Source: Acidobacteriota bacterium (lineage in GTDB: Bacteria > Acidobacteriota > Terriglobia > Terriglobales > Acidobacteriaceae). From it: a stretch of DNA of 49,229 nucleotides. The first letter of the stretch is position 1. The number at the start of each line of letters is the position of its first letter. The stretch is taken from the NCBI GenBank assembly GCA_021813745.1, contig JAKAJO010000054.1, forward strand, positions 1-49,229, read 5' to 3'. The position numbers were made by a program, and so were the translations under genes. This document shows, in pieces, positions 34,530 through 49,229 of the stretch. Under the pieces are notes generated by a model. It searched no databases. It saw only the letters and a program-made list of their open reading frames with translations, and was not told the DNA's origin.

Positions 34530-39011
<4,482 letters not shown>

Positions 39012-39195
39012 CGAAGTGGGTGCCCCGGAGCCCGATGGTGGGTTCCGGGCACATCCATAAACTGGCCGGTTGCAAAGTTTGTTTGAGGGTCCTTTCTGAA
39101 AGCGGCACATGCCGCCACCCGGGAAGGAAGGACTCCTGAATCATCCCGGGAAAACGCCGCGGCGAGTGCCAAGAGGCCCGCCAAGGAGGGTCGCC

Positions 39196-43386
<4,191 letters not shown>

Positions 43387-43471: not shown

Positions 43472-45877
43472 CTAATCCCGGAAGGGCAGTCCCGGCGTCG
43501 CGTTCTGAGAAGGCATGGTTCCCGTGTGACGTTTGTTCTCCTTCGCAATGTACATGGCTGTATCCGCAGCCTTCAGCAGCATCTCCGGCGTAGTACCGTC
43601 AATCGGATACAGCGCGATACCCATGCTAGCTGAGCCCCGCAGCAGGTAGGCGTCCACCTCAAACGGCGCGTCAAAGCAGTGCTCCAGCCGCTGGCAGATC
43701 TCTTCCACGTCTGCCTGGCTGCGTACCACGGGCACCAGGGCCGCGAACTCGTCGCCACCCAGTCGCGCCAGCATGTCTCCGGTCCGCAATTGCCGCCGCA
43801 TCCGCGCCGCGACCTCCTGCAGATACAGATCGCCCACATGGTGGCCGTACATGTCGTTCACCTGCTTGAACTCGTCCAGGTCCAGATAGATCAGGCCCAA
43901 CACCGAGGACCGCTCGCGCGCCTTTTCAATCTGCTCTTCCAGGTATTTCTCCAGCGAGAAGCGGTTATACACATCCGTCAGCAGGTCGAACTCGGAGCGA
44001 TACACCAGGTCGGAGTACAGCTTACGCGTTTCCATGGCCAGCGAGGCCAGCCGCACACCCTGCGCCAGCGCGGCCGACTCTTCCTGCGCATTGGCTGGCT
44101 GGCTTTTAAGGGCAGCGTGCAGAACGCCCTGCACTCCTCCGGTCGGCGAGGCAATCTCCCTGCCGATTACGCGCACGCCGCTGCGATGAACCGGCGTTTT
44201 ACCATACCGCGTTCCGTCCGCCAGTTCGCACCAGCAGGACGCACCCCGCAGCATGAACGACACCATCTCCATGATGTGTTCCAGAATCTCACCCAGGGGA
44301 CGCGAGCTGTTGATATCTTCCAGAATCCGGCTGCGCCATTGTTCCAGCTGCACAAGGCGCCGTTCCTGGGTTGCCTCTGCTTCAATGCGCGCACGAATTG
44401 CCTCAGTCTGCTGCCGCACCTTGCGGCGCAGAGTCCATCCCCACATCGCCACAATCAGCACAATCGCAGCCAGCAGTTCCACCAGACGAAAGAGATTATG
44501 TGCTGTCGACCACGGTGGGCCCGCCACCACGGTCAGATCATTCGACGAGCGCAACAGCACATTGAATGGCGCGTGTTCGCCCAGGGACGTCGAGTTCGAC
44601 ATGAAGCAAACACCCGTCACGCGCACCCGCGAGCCCGGCTGCAGGCGCCGCATCGGCGCCAGCGAACTCAGCACTCCTGTCCCTCCGGGAGGATGCCGGT
44701 AGATGGCTGAAAACAGGTTGCCGTCCGCTTTCAGAATGTACTCATCCTGGCTTGCTCCCCGCACCTGCGCCAAAAGCTCGCCTTCAATCGAAACCAAATC
44801 AAAAATATTCCGGCTGCTCGACAATGCTTCCCAGGTGCTCGGCTTGGGTGAAATTGGTTCCTGCTTGCCCAGGTCGCGAACCTGAGCTCCGGTCAGGGCA
44901 AGAAATCCGTCGTGCACATCCGGAAATCCAGTGGCATCTGCCGCGTCTCCCACCTGCAAGGGCGCCATTGTCGAGGTCATGACCCACAGGCTTTTCAGTC
45001 CATCCTGCAGCACCACCATGGATCCCGGCTCGTAGTAGGTGATCGTTCCGTGAACTCGAATCCGCTGGCTCAGATTGCTGACGTGATAAGAGGTCAGAAT
45101 CCGGTCCATCGGCGTCACCGGCAGTGACCACGGATTTGAGCCCGCATACCGTAGCACCTGCACATTGGCCATCGATGCCGCATGCAACAGGATCCCTGTC
45201 TGTTGCATCTTTCCGTCAAAACGTCCCGAAACCGCGCCCGTGATCGCAACCTGCGCATCCAGCAGGCTGCCCAGCAAATCAGGATTATCCACGTCCACCG
45301 TGACGCCGATCTCTCCGCCTTCCACATGCAGGTCCAGCAGTGTGCTCCGCACACCGGAGCTCTCGATCGTTTCGGCATCGCGCACCACACCAAAGACTTC
45401 AACCAGCCGCGCGTCCAGATCCGCGCGAATCAGTTCGTCAAACGAAGCCTCCACCGGCGAAGGGAGCGGGGCATGACCCACCACCGTGATGCTGTCGGCC
45501 AACACGCTCGGACGAAATCCAGCCTGGGTCCTGCCCGTCACCTGCACCACATCGCCGGGCTGCAACGGAATCCCCGCCGGCGATTGCACAAAGACCGCCT
45601 GATCTCCGTTCTGGACATACAACATCTGTTCATAGCCGCGGAAATAGGTCACGGTTCCCTCAAAGGAAACCGGAAGGCCCTTGCCCGCTTCTGCATTGCT
45701 TAGGCCTTGTATCGCGCGAATTGTGTTCAGGGGTTTTACCGCAGCTCCTTGGGCGGGCGCTGCAACCGGGGACGTCAGAAGCGCACTGAGCAGCGCACCC
45801 ACGAGAAACCTCTCCCGTGCGGCCAGGCGTCTCGCCGGTCCTGCACCTTGCAGTCCGGTTCCCCCTGCCTTGCGCAT
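43472..45877 (-). CDS. Membrane diguanylate cyclase with extracytoplasmic OB-like repeats
   Basis: An 801-residue protein. A signal sequence (about residues 22-42) leads to a large extracytoplasmic part of about 415 residues that contains at least three strand-rich repeats resembling OB-folds (LPVSFEGTVTYFRGYEQMLY with VVQVTGR; QRIRVHGTITYYEPGSMVVL with ATGF; LVSIEGELLAQVRG with VRVTGVCF). A membrane helix at about 464-482 is followed by a short coiled-coil, a GAF-like segment and a GGDEF domain. The active motif GGDEF is intact at 707-711, and the product-inhibition site RTGD lies five residues before it. Likely an active diguanylate cyclase responding to an external ligand. GGAAGGA precedes the ATG. 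Confidence 0.88.
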   Translation of the reverse strand: MRKAGGTGLQGAGPARRLAARERFLVGALLSALLTSPVAAPAQGAAVKPLNTIRAIQGLSNAEAGKGLPVSFEGTVTYFRGYEQMLYVQNGDQAVFVQSPAGIPLQPGDVVQVTGRTQAGFRPSVLADSITVVGHAPLPSPVEASFDELIRADLDARLVEVFGVVRDAETIESSGVRSTLLDLHVEGGEIGVTVDVDNPDLLGSLLDAQVAITGAVSGRFDGKMQQTGILLHAASMANVQVLRYAGSNPWSLPVTPMDRILTSYHVSNLSQRIRVHGTITYYEPGSMVVLQDGLKSLWVMTSTMAPLQVGDAADATGFPDVHDGFLALTGAQVRDLGKQEPISPKPSTWEALSSSRNIFDLVSIEGELLAQVRGASQDEYILKADGNLFSAIYRHPPGGTGVLSSLAPMRRLQPGSRVRVTGVCFMSNSTSLGEHAPFNVLLRSSNDLTVVAGPPWSTAHNLFRLVELLAAIVLIVAMWGWTLRRKVRQQTEAIRARIEAEATQERRLVQLEQWRSRILEDINSSRPLGEILEHIMEMVSFMLRGASCWCELADGTRYGKTPVHRSGVRVIGREIASPTGGVQGVLHAALKSQPANAQEESAALAQGVRLASLAMETRKLYSDLVYRSEFDLLTDVYNRFSLEKYLEEQIEKARERSSVLGLIYLDLDEFKQVNDMYGHHVGDLYLQEVAARMRRQLRTGDMLARLGGDEFAALVPVVRSQADVEEICQRLEHCFDAPFEVDAYLLRGSASMGIALYPIDGTTPEMLLKAADTAMYIAKENKRHTGTMPSQNATPGLPFRD

Positions 45878-46141: not shown

Positions 46142-47122
46142 ATGTCGAAAGGCGGTGCAGGATTGGTCGCACAGGCTTCGTTCTCCATCGGTGGCAATCA
46201 GGTCCAGCCCACGCGGCAGATTCGCGTCCTCGGCGTACCGCTCGACATGGGTGCCAGCCGCCGCGGCGTCGACATGGGCCCGTCGGCCATGCGCGTTGCC
46301 GGACTCGAGGCGCGGCTTGAAGCGCTCGGCCACCACGTCGCCGATGGCGGCAACATCCGTGTCGAGATCGCTGAGACGCAGGGCTTTGGTGACCGCAAGG
46401 CCCGTTACCTGAAAGAGATTGCCGAAACCTGCACGCGCACTGCCGAAGCCGTTGTCGAGACGCTCGAAGAGGGCCTCACGCCGCTCATCCTCGGCGGCGA
46501 CCACTCCATCGCCGTGGGTTCCATCTCTGGAGTGTCTGAGTTCTATCGCCGCAGAAATCAGAAGATCGGCGTCATCTGGATGGACGCCCACTCCGACATC
46601 AATACGCCGGAAACCTCGCCCTCCGGCAACGTCCACGGCATGCCGCTGGCTGCGCTGCTCGGCCTCGGCCCCGAGCCGCTCACCCACATCTTTGGTTACG
46701 CTCCTAAAATCGCCCCGGAAAACACCATCCTCATCGGCGTGCGCGACATCGACGCGACAGAGCGCGAAAACATCCGCCGCGCCGGCCTCACTGAGGTCTA
46801 CACCATGCGCGACATCGACGAGCGCGGCATGCGCGCCGTCATGGAGGATGCTCTCCGCGCCGCCTCACGCGACACCGCAGGCTTCCACGTCTCGCTGGAC
46901 ATGGACTGGATCGACCCCGAAGACGCCCCCGGCGTCGGCACGCCCGTCCGCGGCGGCGCCACCTACCGCGAGGCCCACCTCGCCATGGAGATCATCGCCG
47001 ACCACGGCGGCATGGTCAGCTTAGAGATGGTCGAGGTCAACCCCGTCATCGACGAGCACAACCGCACCGCCGACCTCGCCGTCGAACTCGCCTGCTCCGC
47101 CTTCGGCAAAAAGATCCTGTAA
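46142..47122 (+). CDS. rocF: Arginase
   Basis: A 326-residue member of the ureohydrolase family. All six manganese ligands are present: H121 in [11 protein letters not shown]148, H150 and D152 in MDAHSDINT, and D253 and D255 in [22 protein letters not shown] and the C-terminal [19 protein letters not shown] fit the RocF/arginase branch (arginine to ornithine and urea) rather than agmatinase. The start at 46142 gives the usual length; GGGAGGG lies about 11 bases upstream. The frame is open upstream to 45707 but that part covers the divergent cyclase start. No urease is in the window. Confidence 0.9.
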
Positions 47123-47125
47123 CCG

Positions 47126-47953
47126 CTACGCGAGGACTGGAAGCAGTTCATTCTGCTGAGAGCCATATTGAGCTTGAATCTCGCGTGCCCAGTTCAAAGC
47201 GGTGCCTAATGGAGAGACAGGATAGCGGCTGCGAGCAGGGAATCCATCGTAAGTCTTCCCATCGAGTAATCTGCCCGCCTGCTTCTTGCGGACACCGCCC
47301 CATTGCTTGAAGAAGAAAGGAATACCTGCATCCACGCATTGATTGCGAACGGAGACGACCCATTCTTTCTCAAGAGGCCGCGCACCATTTCCGCTTTCAC
47401 CGCCGACAATCACCCAATGAATGCCATTCAGATTAATGCGGCCAAGTCCTTCCAGCAAGGGTTCCACAGACAGGAAGCGAACCGATGCAGATGCTTGTTG
47501 CAGGTCGCGAAGTCGAGGTAGACCATGTTTTCTGTTTTCAACGCTGACGCCCCACCAGATGTGCGGATACTCAGCGGCAAAGCGCAGCTTGCCACGTAAG
47601 AGGCTCGCCATCCTCGCAGAACGCTTGGTGAGAACTTGGTATGTATGCCACTTGGCCTTGACCATCACGGCTGCAACCGCCTCGATGTATTCGTCTGGCA
47701 CGCCATCATGAAACAGGTCGCTCATCGAGTTGACGAAAATCATCTTTGGTTCCCGCCAGCGCAGCGGCTCCGCCAGTTTTTCCGGAACGAGCCGAAGATC
47801 GAATCCCTGCTCATACGGATGCCCCGGAACGCCACGGAACCTCTCTGCGAATGTCTCCGCGTAGCAGTGCTTGCAGCCTGGGCTGACCTTTGCGCAACCG
47901 CGCACAGGATTCCACGTTGAGTCTGTCCATTCGATATTGCTATTCGCGCTCAT
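47126..47953 (-). CDS. Gp37/Gp68 (DUF5131) three-cysteine family protein
   Basis: A 275-residue protein. The N-terminus NIEWTDSTWNPVRGCAKVSP followed by GCKHCYAETFAERFRG has C20, C27 and C30 (C-x6-C-x2-C), which gives the three-Cys motif its name. The family is related to radical-SAM proteins such as spore photoproduct lyase, so these cysteines may hold a [4Fe-4S] cluster, though the spacing is not the canonical C-x3-C-x2-C. Later motifs are IFVNSMSDLFHDGVP, WHTYQVLTKR, WWGVSVENRK, FLSVEPLLEGLG, VIVGGESGNGARPL and PFFFKQWGG. It begins six bases after the tcmP stop. Base composition is lower in GC than its neighbours. Confidence 0.85.
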   Translation of the reverse strand: MSANSNIEWTDSTWNPVRGCAKVSPGCKHCYAETFAERFRGVPGHPYEQGFDLRLVPEKLAEPLRWREPKMIFVNSMSDLFHDGVPDEYIEAVAAVMVKAKWHTYQVLTKRSARMASLLRGKLRFAAEYPHIWWGVSVENRKHGLPRLRDLQQASASVRFLSVEPLLEGLGRINLNGIHWVIVGGESGNGARPLEKEWVVSVRNQCVDAGIPFFFKQWGGVRKKQAGRLLDGKTYDGFPARSRYPVSPLGTALNWAREIQAQYGSQQNELLPVLA

Positions 47954-47959
47954 TTGCTT

Positions 47960-49084
47960 TCAGACCTCCTTCTGAACGGAAGGGAAAGTGATCAACGTCG
48001 CATCCGCAAGAGTATTTTTTCGCCGACGGTCTTGCGAGGGATTTGCCTGAATGAGCCCTTTCGCTTCCATTGCACGAAGCACCTCTTTGTAATTCTTCCG
48101 CAGATAAGGTCGTCCGACATTGTGCAACTGATAAATCTGATCGACGGACATTGTTTTTCGCTGAAACGAATCTAAGAGCATCTCCTCCAAATCGTCCAAC
48201 GGTCGATTGAGCTCGAACAGCATCGGATGGATTGCTGAAGCAGGGCAATAGCCGAAGGATGGAACCCCTTGATGGCGTTCAGAGCTCCGACTCGCCATGA
48301 TCTCCTTCATCATCTCGTAGCCTTTGGGATGCTTTGTCGCAAAAATCAGATGATGACTGGTCCTATTACCTAACTCGTTTTTGAAGCAGAAGGGAAGCAC
48401 ATAATCGGCTCCAAGCTCCTTCAGCGCCTGCGAAAGCTCCTCGACGATTGTGGCCTCGCGATCGCCAGGCTGAAGCAATTCTAATTTTTTGCGAAGCATT
48501 GCGGCTCGTGCGGTGCCGAAAAGGACATCCATGTGTTGCTTGACCGCTGGATTACTCAAACCGGCGTTGATCCGGTTGTAGTTAAAGAAAAAGATGCAGT
48601 CGCATCCCCAGTTCCTCAGGACAGAATTAATCAGACCAAGAGACAGTCCTTTGTATCCCCACGGATCGACAAAGAATAGAGTTGGGATGCCGCGCCATCT
48701 TTCAAACATCGCGACAATTCGCTCCCCGACTTCTTCCGGAGTCACCTGAGGCCTATACTTGAGCAATTCGACCCCAGGAAAGGAATCGACTTCGGCCCGC
48801 AATACAGCAGCATGATCAGAATTTGCATCGTTGAACAGAATTTCAAGATGCTGACGCATGTCCGGATCATCTATCGTTTTTTGAAGCACCAAAAGCGGTG
48901 TTGACGCGGTGCTGTCCTTATACCTTCCCGGGCCAGCAAATAAGTCGATATAGGCCAACTTCCCTTGCCTAGCCTTGACCGTTGGAAGGACCACCTTTGC
49001 CCAAGCCCAAAAATAATCGCTCACGATTGCAGCCTTCACCCGCGATTGCTCGGAAGACTCGTCGAAGAAATGTTCGTTTTTCAT
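47960..49084 (-). CDS. tcmP: Three-Cys-motif partner protein TcmP
   Basis: A 374-residue protein starting at the ATG at 49084, which matches the family start (HFFDESSEQSRVKAAIVSDY). Residues 46-53 (IDLFAGPG), 85-88 (NDAN) and 139-143 (VDPWG) look like motifs I, II and IV of a Rossmann methyltransferase, but catalysis is unproven. TcmP is known as the neighbour of the three-Cys-motif Gp37/Gp68 protein, here directly downstream. A C-terminal part (MSVDQIYQLHNVGRPYLRKN) resembles a winged helix. No Shine-Dalgarno is seen; an IS end sits about 20 bases upstream, so native promoter elements may have been replaced. Confidence 0.85.
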   Translation of the reverse strand: MKNEHFFDESSEQSRVKAAIVSDYFWAWAKVVLPTVKARQGKLAYIDLFAGPGRYKDSTASTPLLVLQKTIDDPDMRQHLEILFNDANSDHAAVLRAEVDSFPGVELLKYRPQVTPEEVGERIVAMFERWRGIPTLFFVDPWGYKGLSLGLINSVLRNWGCDCIFFFNYNRINAGLSNPAVKQHMDVLFGTARAAMLRKKLELLQPGDREATIVEELSQALKELGADYVLPFCFKNELGNRTSHHLIFATKHPKGYEMMKEIMASRSSERHQGVPSFGYCPASAIHPMLFELNRPLDDLEEMLLDSFQRKTMSVDQIYQLHNVGRPYLRKNYKEVLRAMEAKGLIQANPSQDRRRKNTLADATLITFPSVQKEV

Positions 49085-49104: not shown

Positions 49105-49229
49105 TAGGGCGTGTTAACACTATTGCCATCTAACTGGTGTAAGTTAGCGATAGATGGAAATCACCGAAGAGCAGTACGCACGCATCAAGGATAGCCTGCC
49201 GGTACAGCGCGGCAACGTGAGCTTGTCCA
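49105..49229 (+). mobile_element. IS5-family insertion sequence, left end (runs off the window)
   Basis: Starting near 49105, AGGGCGTGTTAACACTATTG precedes an IS5-type transposase gene and looks like a terminal inverted repeat; GTGTTAACAC (49111-49120) is palindromic. CTAACT/AGTTAG (49130-49147) forms another small inverted repeat just before the transposase start. A TTA or TA before the end may be target duplication. The right end is beyond the window, so the exact border is estimated. Confidence 0.65.
49154..49229 (+). CDS. IS5-family transposase (5' end only)
   Basis: The first 25 codons read MEITEEQYARIKDSLPVQRG then NVSLS, the characteristic start of the IS5-family (IS427/IS1031-like) orfA, a helical DNA-binding part before the DDE catalytic domain. 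The rest lies outside the window. It is divergent from tcmP. Confidence 0.8.
   Translation, partial: MEITEEQYARIKDSLPVQRGNVSLS

Follow-up and report, generated by a model that had tools for sequence, protein, structure and literature searches.

The window analysed here, a stretch of 49,229 nucleotides that is one whole contig (JAKAJO010000054.1) of the 4.6 Mb genome of an Acidobacteriota bacterium, carries near its right end two neighbouring genes encoding a TcmP protein and a DUF5131 ("phage Gp37/Gp68 family") protein. These genes form a linked cassette: DUF5131 is likely a radical S-adenosylmethionine (SAM) enzyme of the spore photoproduct lyase (SPL) type, while TcmP combines a predicted RlmJ-like methyltransferase fold with a winged helix-turn-helix (wHTH) domain. 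Since a recognised radical-SAM protein takes the place of DUF5131 in some relatives, the pair plausibly modifies or repairs a base of DNA or RNA, and an action of both proteins on the same base is, in our estimate, about evenly balanced between right and wrong.

Linkage of TcmP and DUF5131 across phyla

Protein searches returned at least 5811 relatives of TcmP and at least 8000 of DUF5131, and the genes of the two families are closely linked across phyla. TcmP exceeds its cut-off in 30 of 199 genomes of the Acidobacteriota, 25 of 146 of a cyanobacterial set, 24 of 398 of a Pseudomonadota set and 33 of 201 of a Chloroflexota set, where for the last three sets the phylum was taken from the centre genome's record. 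In the Acidobacteriota, DUF5131 lies at most 365 bases from 30 of the 33 over-cut-off TcmP matches, the other three being near contig ends. Among the best 80 of 201 TcmP loci in public genomes, 78 carry DUF5131, with a second TcmP intervening in L129; the two exceptions are L074, whose sequence stops 125 bases beyond TcmP, and L099, which has another partner. The genome of the window itself contains one match to each family in total.

The arrangement of the two genes is variable. Among 173 classified loci TcmP comes first in 75 and DUF5131 in 39, 56 are convergent and 3 divergent, which requires at least 24 to 26 changes of gene order on two trees. A tail-to-tail orientation was found for 36 of the 73 called pairs in the public-genome scan, mostly in cyanobacterial records and in 18 cases with an overlap of exactly 11 bases, and for 11 of 21 pairs in the cyanobacterial survey. 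Close linkage therefore persists even in orientations that preclude a common transcript. Strict coevolution of TcmP and DUF5131 was also considered and rejected, the correlation being only moderate.

Two different TcmP genes stand beside one DUF5131 or radical-SAM gene in L304/L367, L364, L365, L366, L354 (a Rhodococcus plasmid) and L129, and possibly encode paired TcmP subunits. On the viral contigs L224 and L232, two TcmP matches separated by about 1.1 kb lie upstream of DUF5131 and represent either two copies or a single gene split by an insert.

Exchange of the partner gene

Partners were counted in 194 of the 211 loci from the TcmP searches, some of which had been fetched twice (e.g. L064/L238, L110/L242, L129/L270 and L115/L298); the remaining 17, including L286–L291, fell to a filter (>60 bits, >230 aa), and L286 among them scanned as RlmJ. 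The partner is a DUF5131 protein with a Cx6Cx2C motif in 171 loci, a DUF5131 protein with Cx3Cx2C in two (L251, L252), an SPL-like radical-SAM protein in four plus two, and a larger radical-SAM candidate in four. In L299, one of the last group, the radical-SAM gene would fall past the contig end, so that 3 of these 4 candidates and therefore 182 partners, not 183, were actually seen. Six loci (L099, L304, L299, L301, L302, L305) were labelled by hand. The remaining twelve of the 194 comprise five in which a second TcmP match intervenes before the partner or adjoins it (L129, L270, L224, L232, L266), five that reach a contig end (L074, L019, L314, L025, L299) and two without a partner in view (L319, L320), of which L320 is a weak match, while the genome of L319 contains a fragment of DUF5131 at the end of a contig.

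Of the replacing proteins scanned, four (L245, L254, L304, L099) pass the cut-off of the Pfam model Radical_SAM (PF04055). Among the NCBIfam models, the proteins of L099, L245 and L304 come near to PA0069, Rv2578c and radical SAM mobile pair B, in all cases under the cut-offs of those models, and for the larger candidate that was scanned the match is to spore photoproduct lyase, with an E-value of 3.3e-5 and 23 bits (cut-off 400). A radical-SAM candidate of 500 aa with the motif VCPVECGFCY and a weak spore photoproduct lyase match adjoins TcmP in L362 (4319–5821), and comparable proteins occur in L302 and L305.

A DUF5131 match over the cut-off is missing from eight of the nine genomes in which a replacement pair was seen (their completeness is not given), and in the ninth (G252) it lies beside a second TcmP. 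From these sequence data the radical-SAM proteins therefore look like a replacement of DUF5131 rather than an addition to it. At least six partner changes are needed on the tree, and L099 has a TcmP of the same subfamily as that of the window (56% identity). The exchange provides a natural control, in that one kind of TcmP can be compared beside DUF5131 and beside a member of the recognised radical-SAM family.

Relationship of DUF5131 to radical-SAM proteins

The DUF5131 protein of the window lacks the canonical Cx3Cx2C of the radical-SAM superfamily and has Cx6Cx2C, a spacing found in 225 of 226 regular-expression matches among the loci then collected. It nevertheless matches TIGR04471 (radical SAM mobile pair A) with an E-value of 5.9e-20, under the equivalog cut-off. 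Alignment of L251 and L252 with DUF5131 proteins shows exactly three residues fewer between the first and second cysteine, and the same three-residue gap appears when the DUF5131 profile, which includes L251 and L252, is aligned by hhalign with that of the SPL-like partners (94.8% probability, E 4.9e-8, 145 columns). Compared with solved structures, the profile of the replacing proteins gave weak rows at E-values of 0.059 to 0.24 that include spore photoproduct lyase as well as radical-SAM proteins, and sequence searches of solved structures yielded no convincing relative for either window protein. Two results speak against a radical-SAM assignment: the window protein did not match PF04055 at E≤1 in the Pfam scan, and its structure model, built from a shallow alignment, was too poor to help and gave no clear fold match. 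On balance, DUF5131 is related in sequence to radical-SAM proteins and is likely an enzyme of the spore-photoproduct-lyase type.

Domain structure and possible role of TcmP

TcmP matches TIGR04474 with 208.7 bits (curated cut-off 53) and the family assignments of both proteins of the pair are far above chance. The predicted fold is RlmJ-like, and a GMT-like wHTH domain (PF22560) covers residues 296–364 of the 389-aa ORF (open reading frame) given by the longer start. The motifs DLFAGPG, NDAN and DPWG begin at residues 47, 85 and 140, respectively. Domain scans found no nuclease or toxin domain in either protein of the pair.

Motif IV of TcmP reads DP[WFY]G in place of DPPY, a single TcmP family is combined with several radical-SAM families, and two diverged TcmP copies can adjoin one partner. 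These features are compatible with TcmP being a non-catalytic adaptor with a methyltransferase fold which delivers the substrate to the radical-SAM enzyme. However, D47 and G53 of motif I as well as D140 are invariant across 75 TcmP sequences, and we consider such an adaptor role unlikely.

Proposed function

A joint action of TcmP and DUF5131 on one nucleobase is the simplest reading of the data, although we give it only an even chance. In this scenario, C20, C27 and C30 of DUF5131 would bind a [4Fe-4S] cluster that cleaves SAM, and K17 and D140 would form the catalytic pair of TcmP in analogy to K18 and D164 of RlmJ. The wHTH domain might bind nucleic acid, TcmP would present the base or methylate its amino group, and DUF5131 would carry out the radical step; either foreign or the host's own nucleic acid may be the target. 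The preliminary description of the window had proposed a nucleic-acid modification system, and its interpretation holds in part. The tightly linked minus-strand pair is borne out by two ORFs 6 bases apart with tcmP first, and the motifs by C20-x6-C27-x2-C30 in DUF5131 and DLFAGPG, NDAN and DPWG in TcmP. The methyltransferase-like character of TcmP agrees with the predicted fold, the radical-SAM relationship with the TIGR04471 match, the L251/L252 alignment, the hhalign result and the replacing partners, and mobility with the phage and plasmid loci described below, whereas an enrichment in defence contexts, a check named in that description, was not supported, although single loci do adjoin restriction or other defence genes.

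Spore photoproduct lyase, the best-known relative of the replacing radical-SAM proteins, repairs DNA. The pair might accordingly serve the repair of damaged host nucleic acid, DUF5131 reversing a lesion in a similar manner and TcmP recognizing the damaged site. This possibility, which we regard as improbable, would fit the relationship of the scanned replacement partners to SPL-type families, the same chromosomal neighbours recurring at cyanobacterial loci (10, 7 and 5 loci), and the gene order lexA–DUF5131–TcmP–nitroreductase–SPL-like in L003 (genome G010), a hint at DNA-damage regulation in which lexA and nitroreductase are our assignments by eye. Conversely, LexA is not among the 25 Pfam families shown of the 118 found for 120 near genes, and the occurrence of the pair is patchy (6–17% of genomes). 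The adaptor, repair and defence roles are overlapping rivals, and that of defence also overlaps with the joint action on one base.

More speculatively, and with a probability we put as low as that of repair, TcmP could be the invariable member of a general class of base-editing cassettes with two enzymes. It would then serve as an RlmJ-fold, winged-helix methyltransferase platform to which exchangeable SPL-type radical-SAM enzymes dock, of which DUF5131 would be the commonest, and both enzymes would make or erase a hypermodified base in DNA or RNA. If the pair does edit a base, a widespread family gains a question of chemistry, namely which base is concerned and whether in DNA or RNA, and a further one as to whether the pair protects the host or its mobile elements.

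Mobile contexts and the question of defence

DUF5131 is present in all 14 viral TcmP loci, and TcmP adjoins DUF5131 in 38 of the best 80 of 280 viral DUF5131 loci; a viral scan with a single TcmP protein returned nothing, but the alignment-based scan did find TcmP. In the Gordonia phage ThankyouJordi the pair lies between the immunity repressor and the integrase, and on plasmids it was found beside an integrase, beside a type ISP restriction enzyme and, in one locus, beside DUF3375, DUF4194 and ATPase genes, which we take to be Wadjet. The TcmP–DUF5131–TcmP set of L365 stands next to genes that are presumably TniA, TniB and TniQ; the first of them has only below-cut-off NCBIfam transposase matches. 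A position at most 4 kb from an end was recorded for 8 of 20 paired and 6 of 31 solo viral contigs (expected 3.7 and 5.3), the comparison covering 51 of the 80 contigs listed (lengths from about 30 kb upwards). This is only suggestive of a prophage-end placement, and several of the contigs look like one lineage. Besides, the mycobacteriophage loci L360 and L361 have a DUF5131 gene without annotated TcmP in the vicinity of genes for a phage DNA methyltransferase and for replication or HNH proteins, that of L360 being annotated as "RNA methyltransferase".

The pair had been described beforehand as a known co-occurrence, and indeed PADLOC already lists it as the candidate system PDC-M30/M41: the models PDC-M30A and PDC-M30B both match (E 2.2e-23 and 2.4e-101), and M41B and M30B fit DUF5131 equally well. 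The pair might thus be an anti-phage defence system that marks or damages phage nucleic acid or senses infection. PDC-M30 was predicted in 32 of 100 P. aeruginosa strains, 68.8% of which were phage-resistant, a correlation only (PMC10855318), and an S. meliloti expression table lists tcmP (SMa2243) after hna (SMa2245), with adjacency inferred from the locus tags (PMC12445080). The ThankyouJordi locus and the single plasmid loci beside the restriction enzyme or the putative Wadjet genes point in the same direction.

The gene neighbourhoods were compared twice, 20 regions being taken for each group and genes being called by a simple longest-ORF caller; the tests tally families (25 shown), not proteins, and counts of hit proteins are therefore approximate. 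In public-genome loci (PADLOC E≤1e-15), the 120 nearest genes gave 177 PADLOC families versus 111 for 120 distant genes, but none of the families shown exceeded 3 of 120 members, and many rows were type I specificity models with two members. In Pseudomonadota (E≤1e-20), 130 of 147 near genes gave 7 families, whereas 130 of 182 control genes gave 62, including Gabija. Hence, neither comparison revealed a clear excess of defence genes near the pair. Among the 120 genes near loci of the window's subfamily, housekeeping families are the commonest of the Pfam families shown (25 of 118), and the pair lacks a nuclease or toxin domain. In the window, the scanned neighbours are arginase and GGDEF proteins, the other side ending at the contig end. 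Taken together, a defence function is conceivable but rather doubtful.

The locus in the window

The features of the locus are compiled in Table 1. The pair has a guanine-plus-cytosine content of 0.520 compared with 0.604 for the window, in agreement with the lower value noted in the preliminary description, and only 1 of 473 equal-sized sliding windows is as low. The insertion sequence that this description placed beside the pair is also supported: a stretch of 118 bases at the end of the contig occurs at five places in the genome, this copy included, and comparison with L409 and L410 sets the left edge near 49105, roughly 20 bases upstream of tcmP. The repeat may have cut off tcmP from its native upstream region, and expression in this strain is therefore uncertain. 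Position 49084 is the better tcmP start: the longer start at 49129 falls within the repeat, and the proteins of relatives start at the MKNEHFF position.

Only 3 bases separate the stops of the DUF5131 gene and the convergent arginase-family gene. Among 30 same-family arginase loci fetched, the pair stands beside arginase only in that of the window; it is absent within the 1.5 kb flanks of the 29 others, the flank of L347 ending at a contig end. The nearest public match of the pair, L061 (Acidobacteriaceae), shares the window's order of TcmP (72%), DUF5131 (79%) and arginase, and no TcmP match was present in the two same-genus genomes sampled. Judged from these comparisons, the presence of the pair at the arginase site is a site-specific gain or loss.

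Table 1. Features of the locus and its surroundings in the window.
Feature	Position	Strand	Properties and basis
DUF5131 ("phage Gp37/Gp68 family") protein	47126..47953	-	275 aa; PF07505 327.3 bits (gathering cut-off 28.9); rSAM_mob_pairA 71.7 bits (cut-off 355); C20-x6-C27-x2-C30
TcmP	47960..49084	-	374 aa; RlmJ-like methyltransferase fold (predicted; model aligned over residues 1-288) and C-terminal wHTH domain
Insertion-sequence-like repeat, start only; runs into the contig end	49105..49229		118-base recurrence and left-edge comparison
Arginase/agmatinase family gene, convergent neighbour; marks the cassette site	46178..47122	+	PF00491 252.8 bits
GGDEF diguanylate cyclase protein	43472-45877	-	801 aa; domain scan
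Two long ORFs	34530-43386	+	second presumably RNA polymerase beta' (by eye), first probably beta

Comparison with known systems

The pair of the window is a member of the known TcmP/DUF5131 pair (TIGR04474 and PF07505; PADLOC PDC-M30) by both families, their adjacency and the motif, and no difference was found. An established function of the pair or an experiment on it was not found in the literature searched, which excluded subscription papers and preprints. The co-occurrence itself is known; the partner replacement, the fold assignment and the arrangement survey were not found in that literature.

TcmP shares its predicted fold with RlmJ, the 23S rRNA m6A2030 methyltransferase, but differs in the additional wHTH domain, in the lack of a PF04378 (RlmJ) match at E≤1 and in its DPWG motif IV, which is DPPY/F in RlmJ (PMC3814359). 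Radical SAM mobile pair A (TIGR04471) resembles DUF5131 (71.7 bits, cut-off 355) but has Cx3Cx2C, and adjoins pair B (TIGR04470) on a plasmid with no TcmP annotated within 3 kb; in this TcmP-free arrangement (L356, 2965–4505, Bacteroides plasmid), the DUF5131-like pair A and the pair B genes overlap by 4 bases. Further comparable proteins are spore photoproduct lyase and the PA0069/Rv2578c-type radical-SAM proteins, whose relatives replace DUF5131 beside TcmP, although they score under the cut-offs of the respective models, and share profile similarity with it over 145 columns. DUF5131 is distinguished from them by its Cx6Cx2C motif, which is Cx3Cx2C in those proteins and Cx3Cx3C in L099 and L304.
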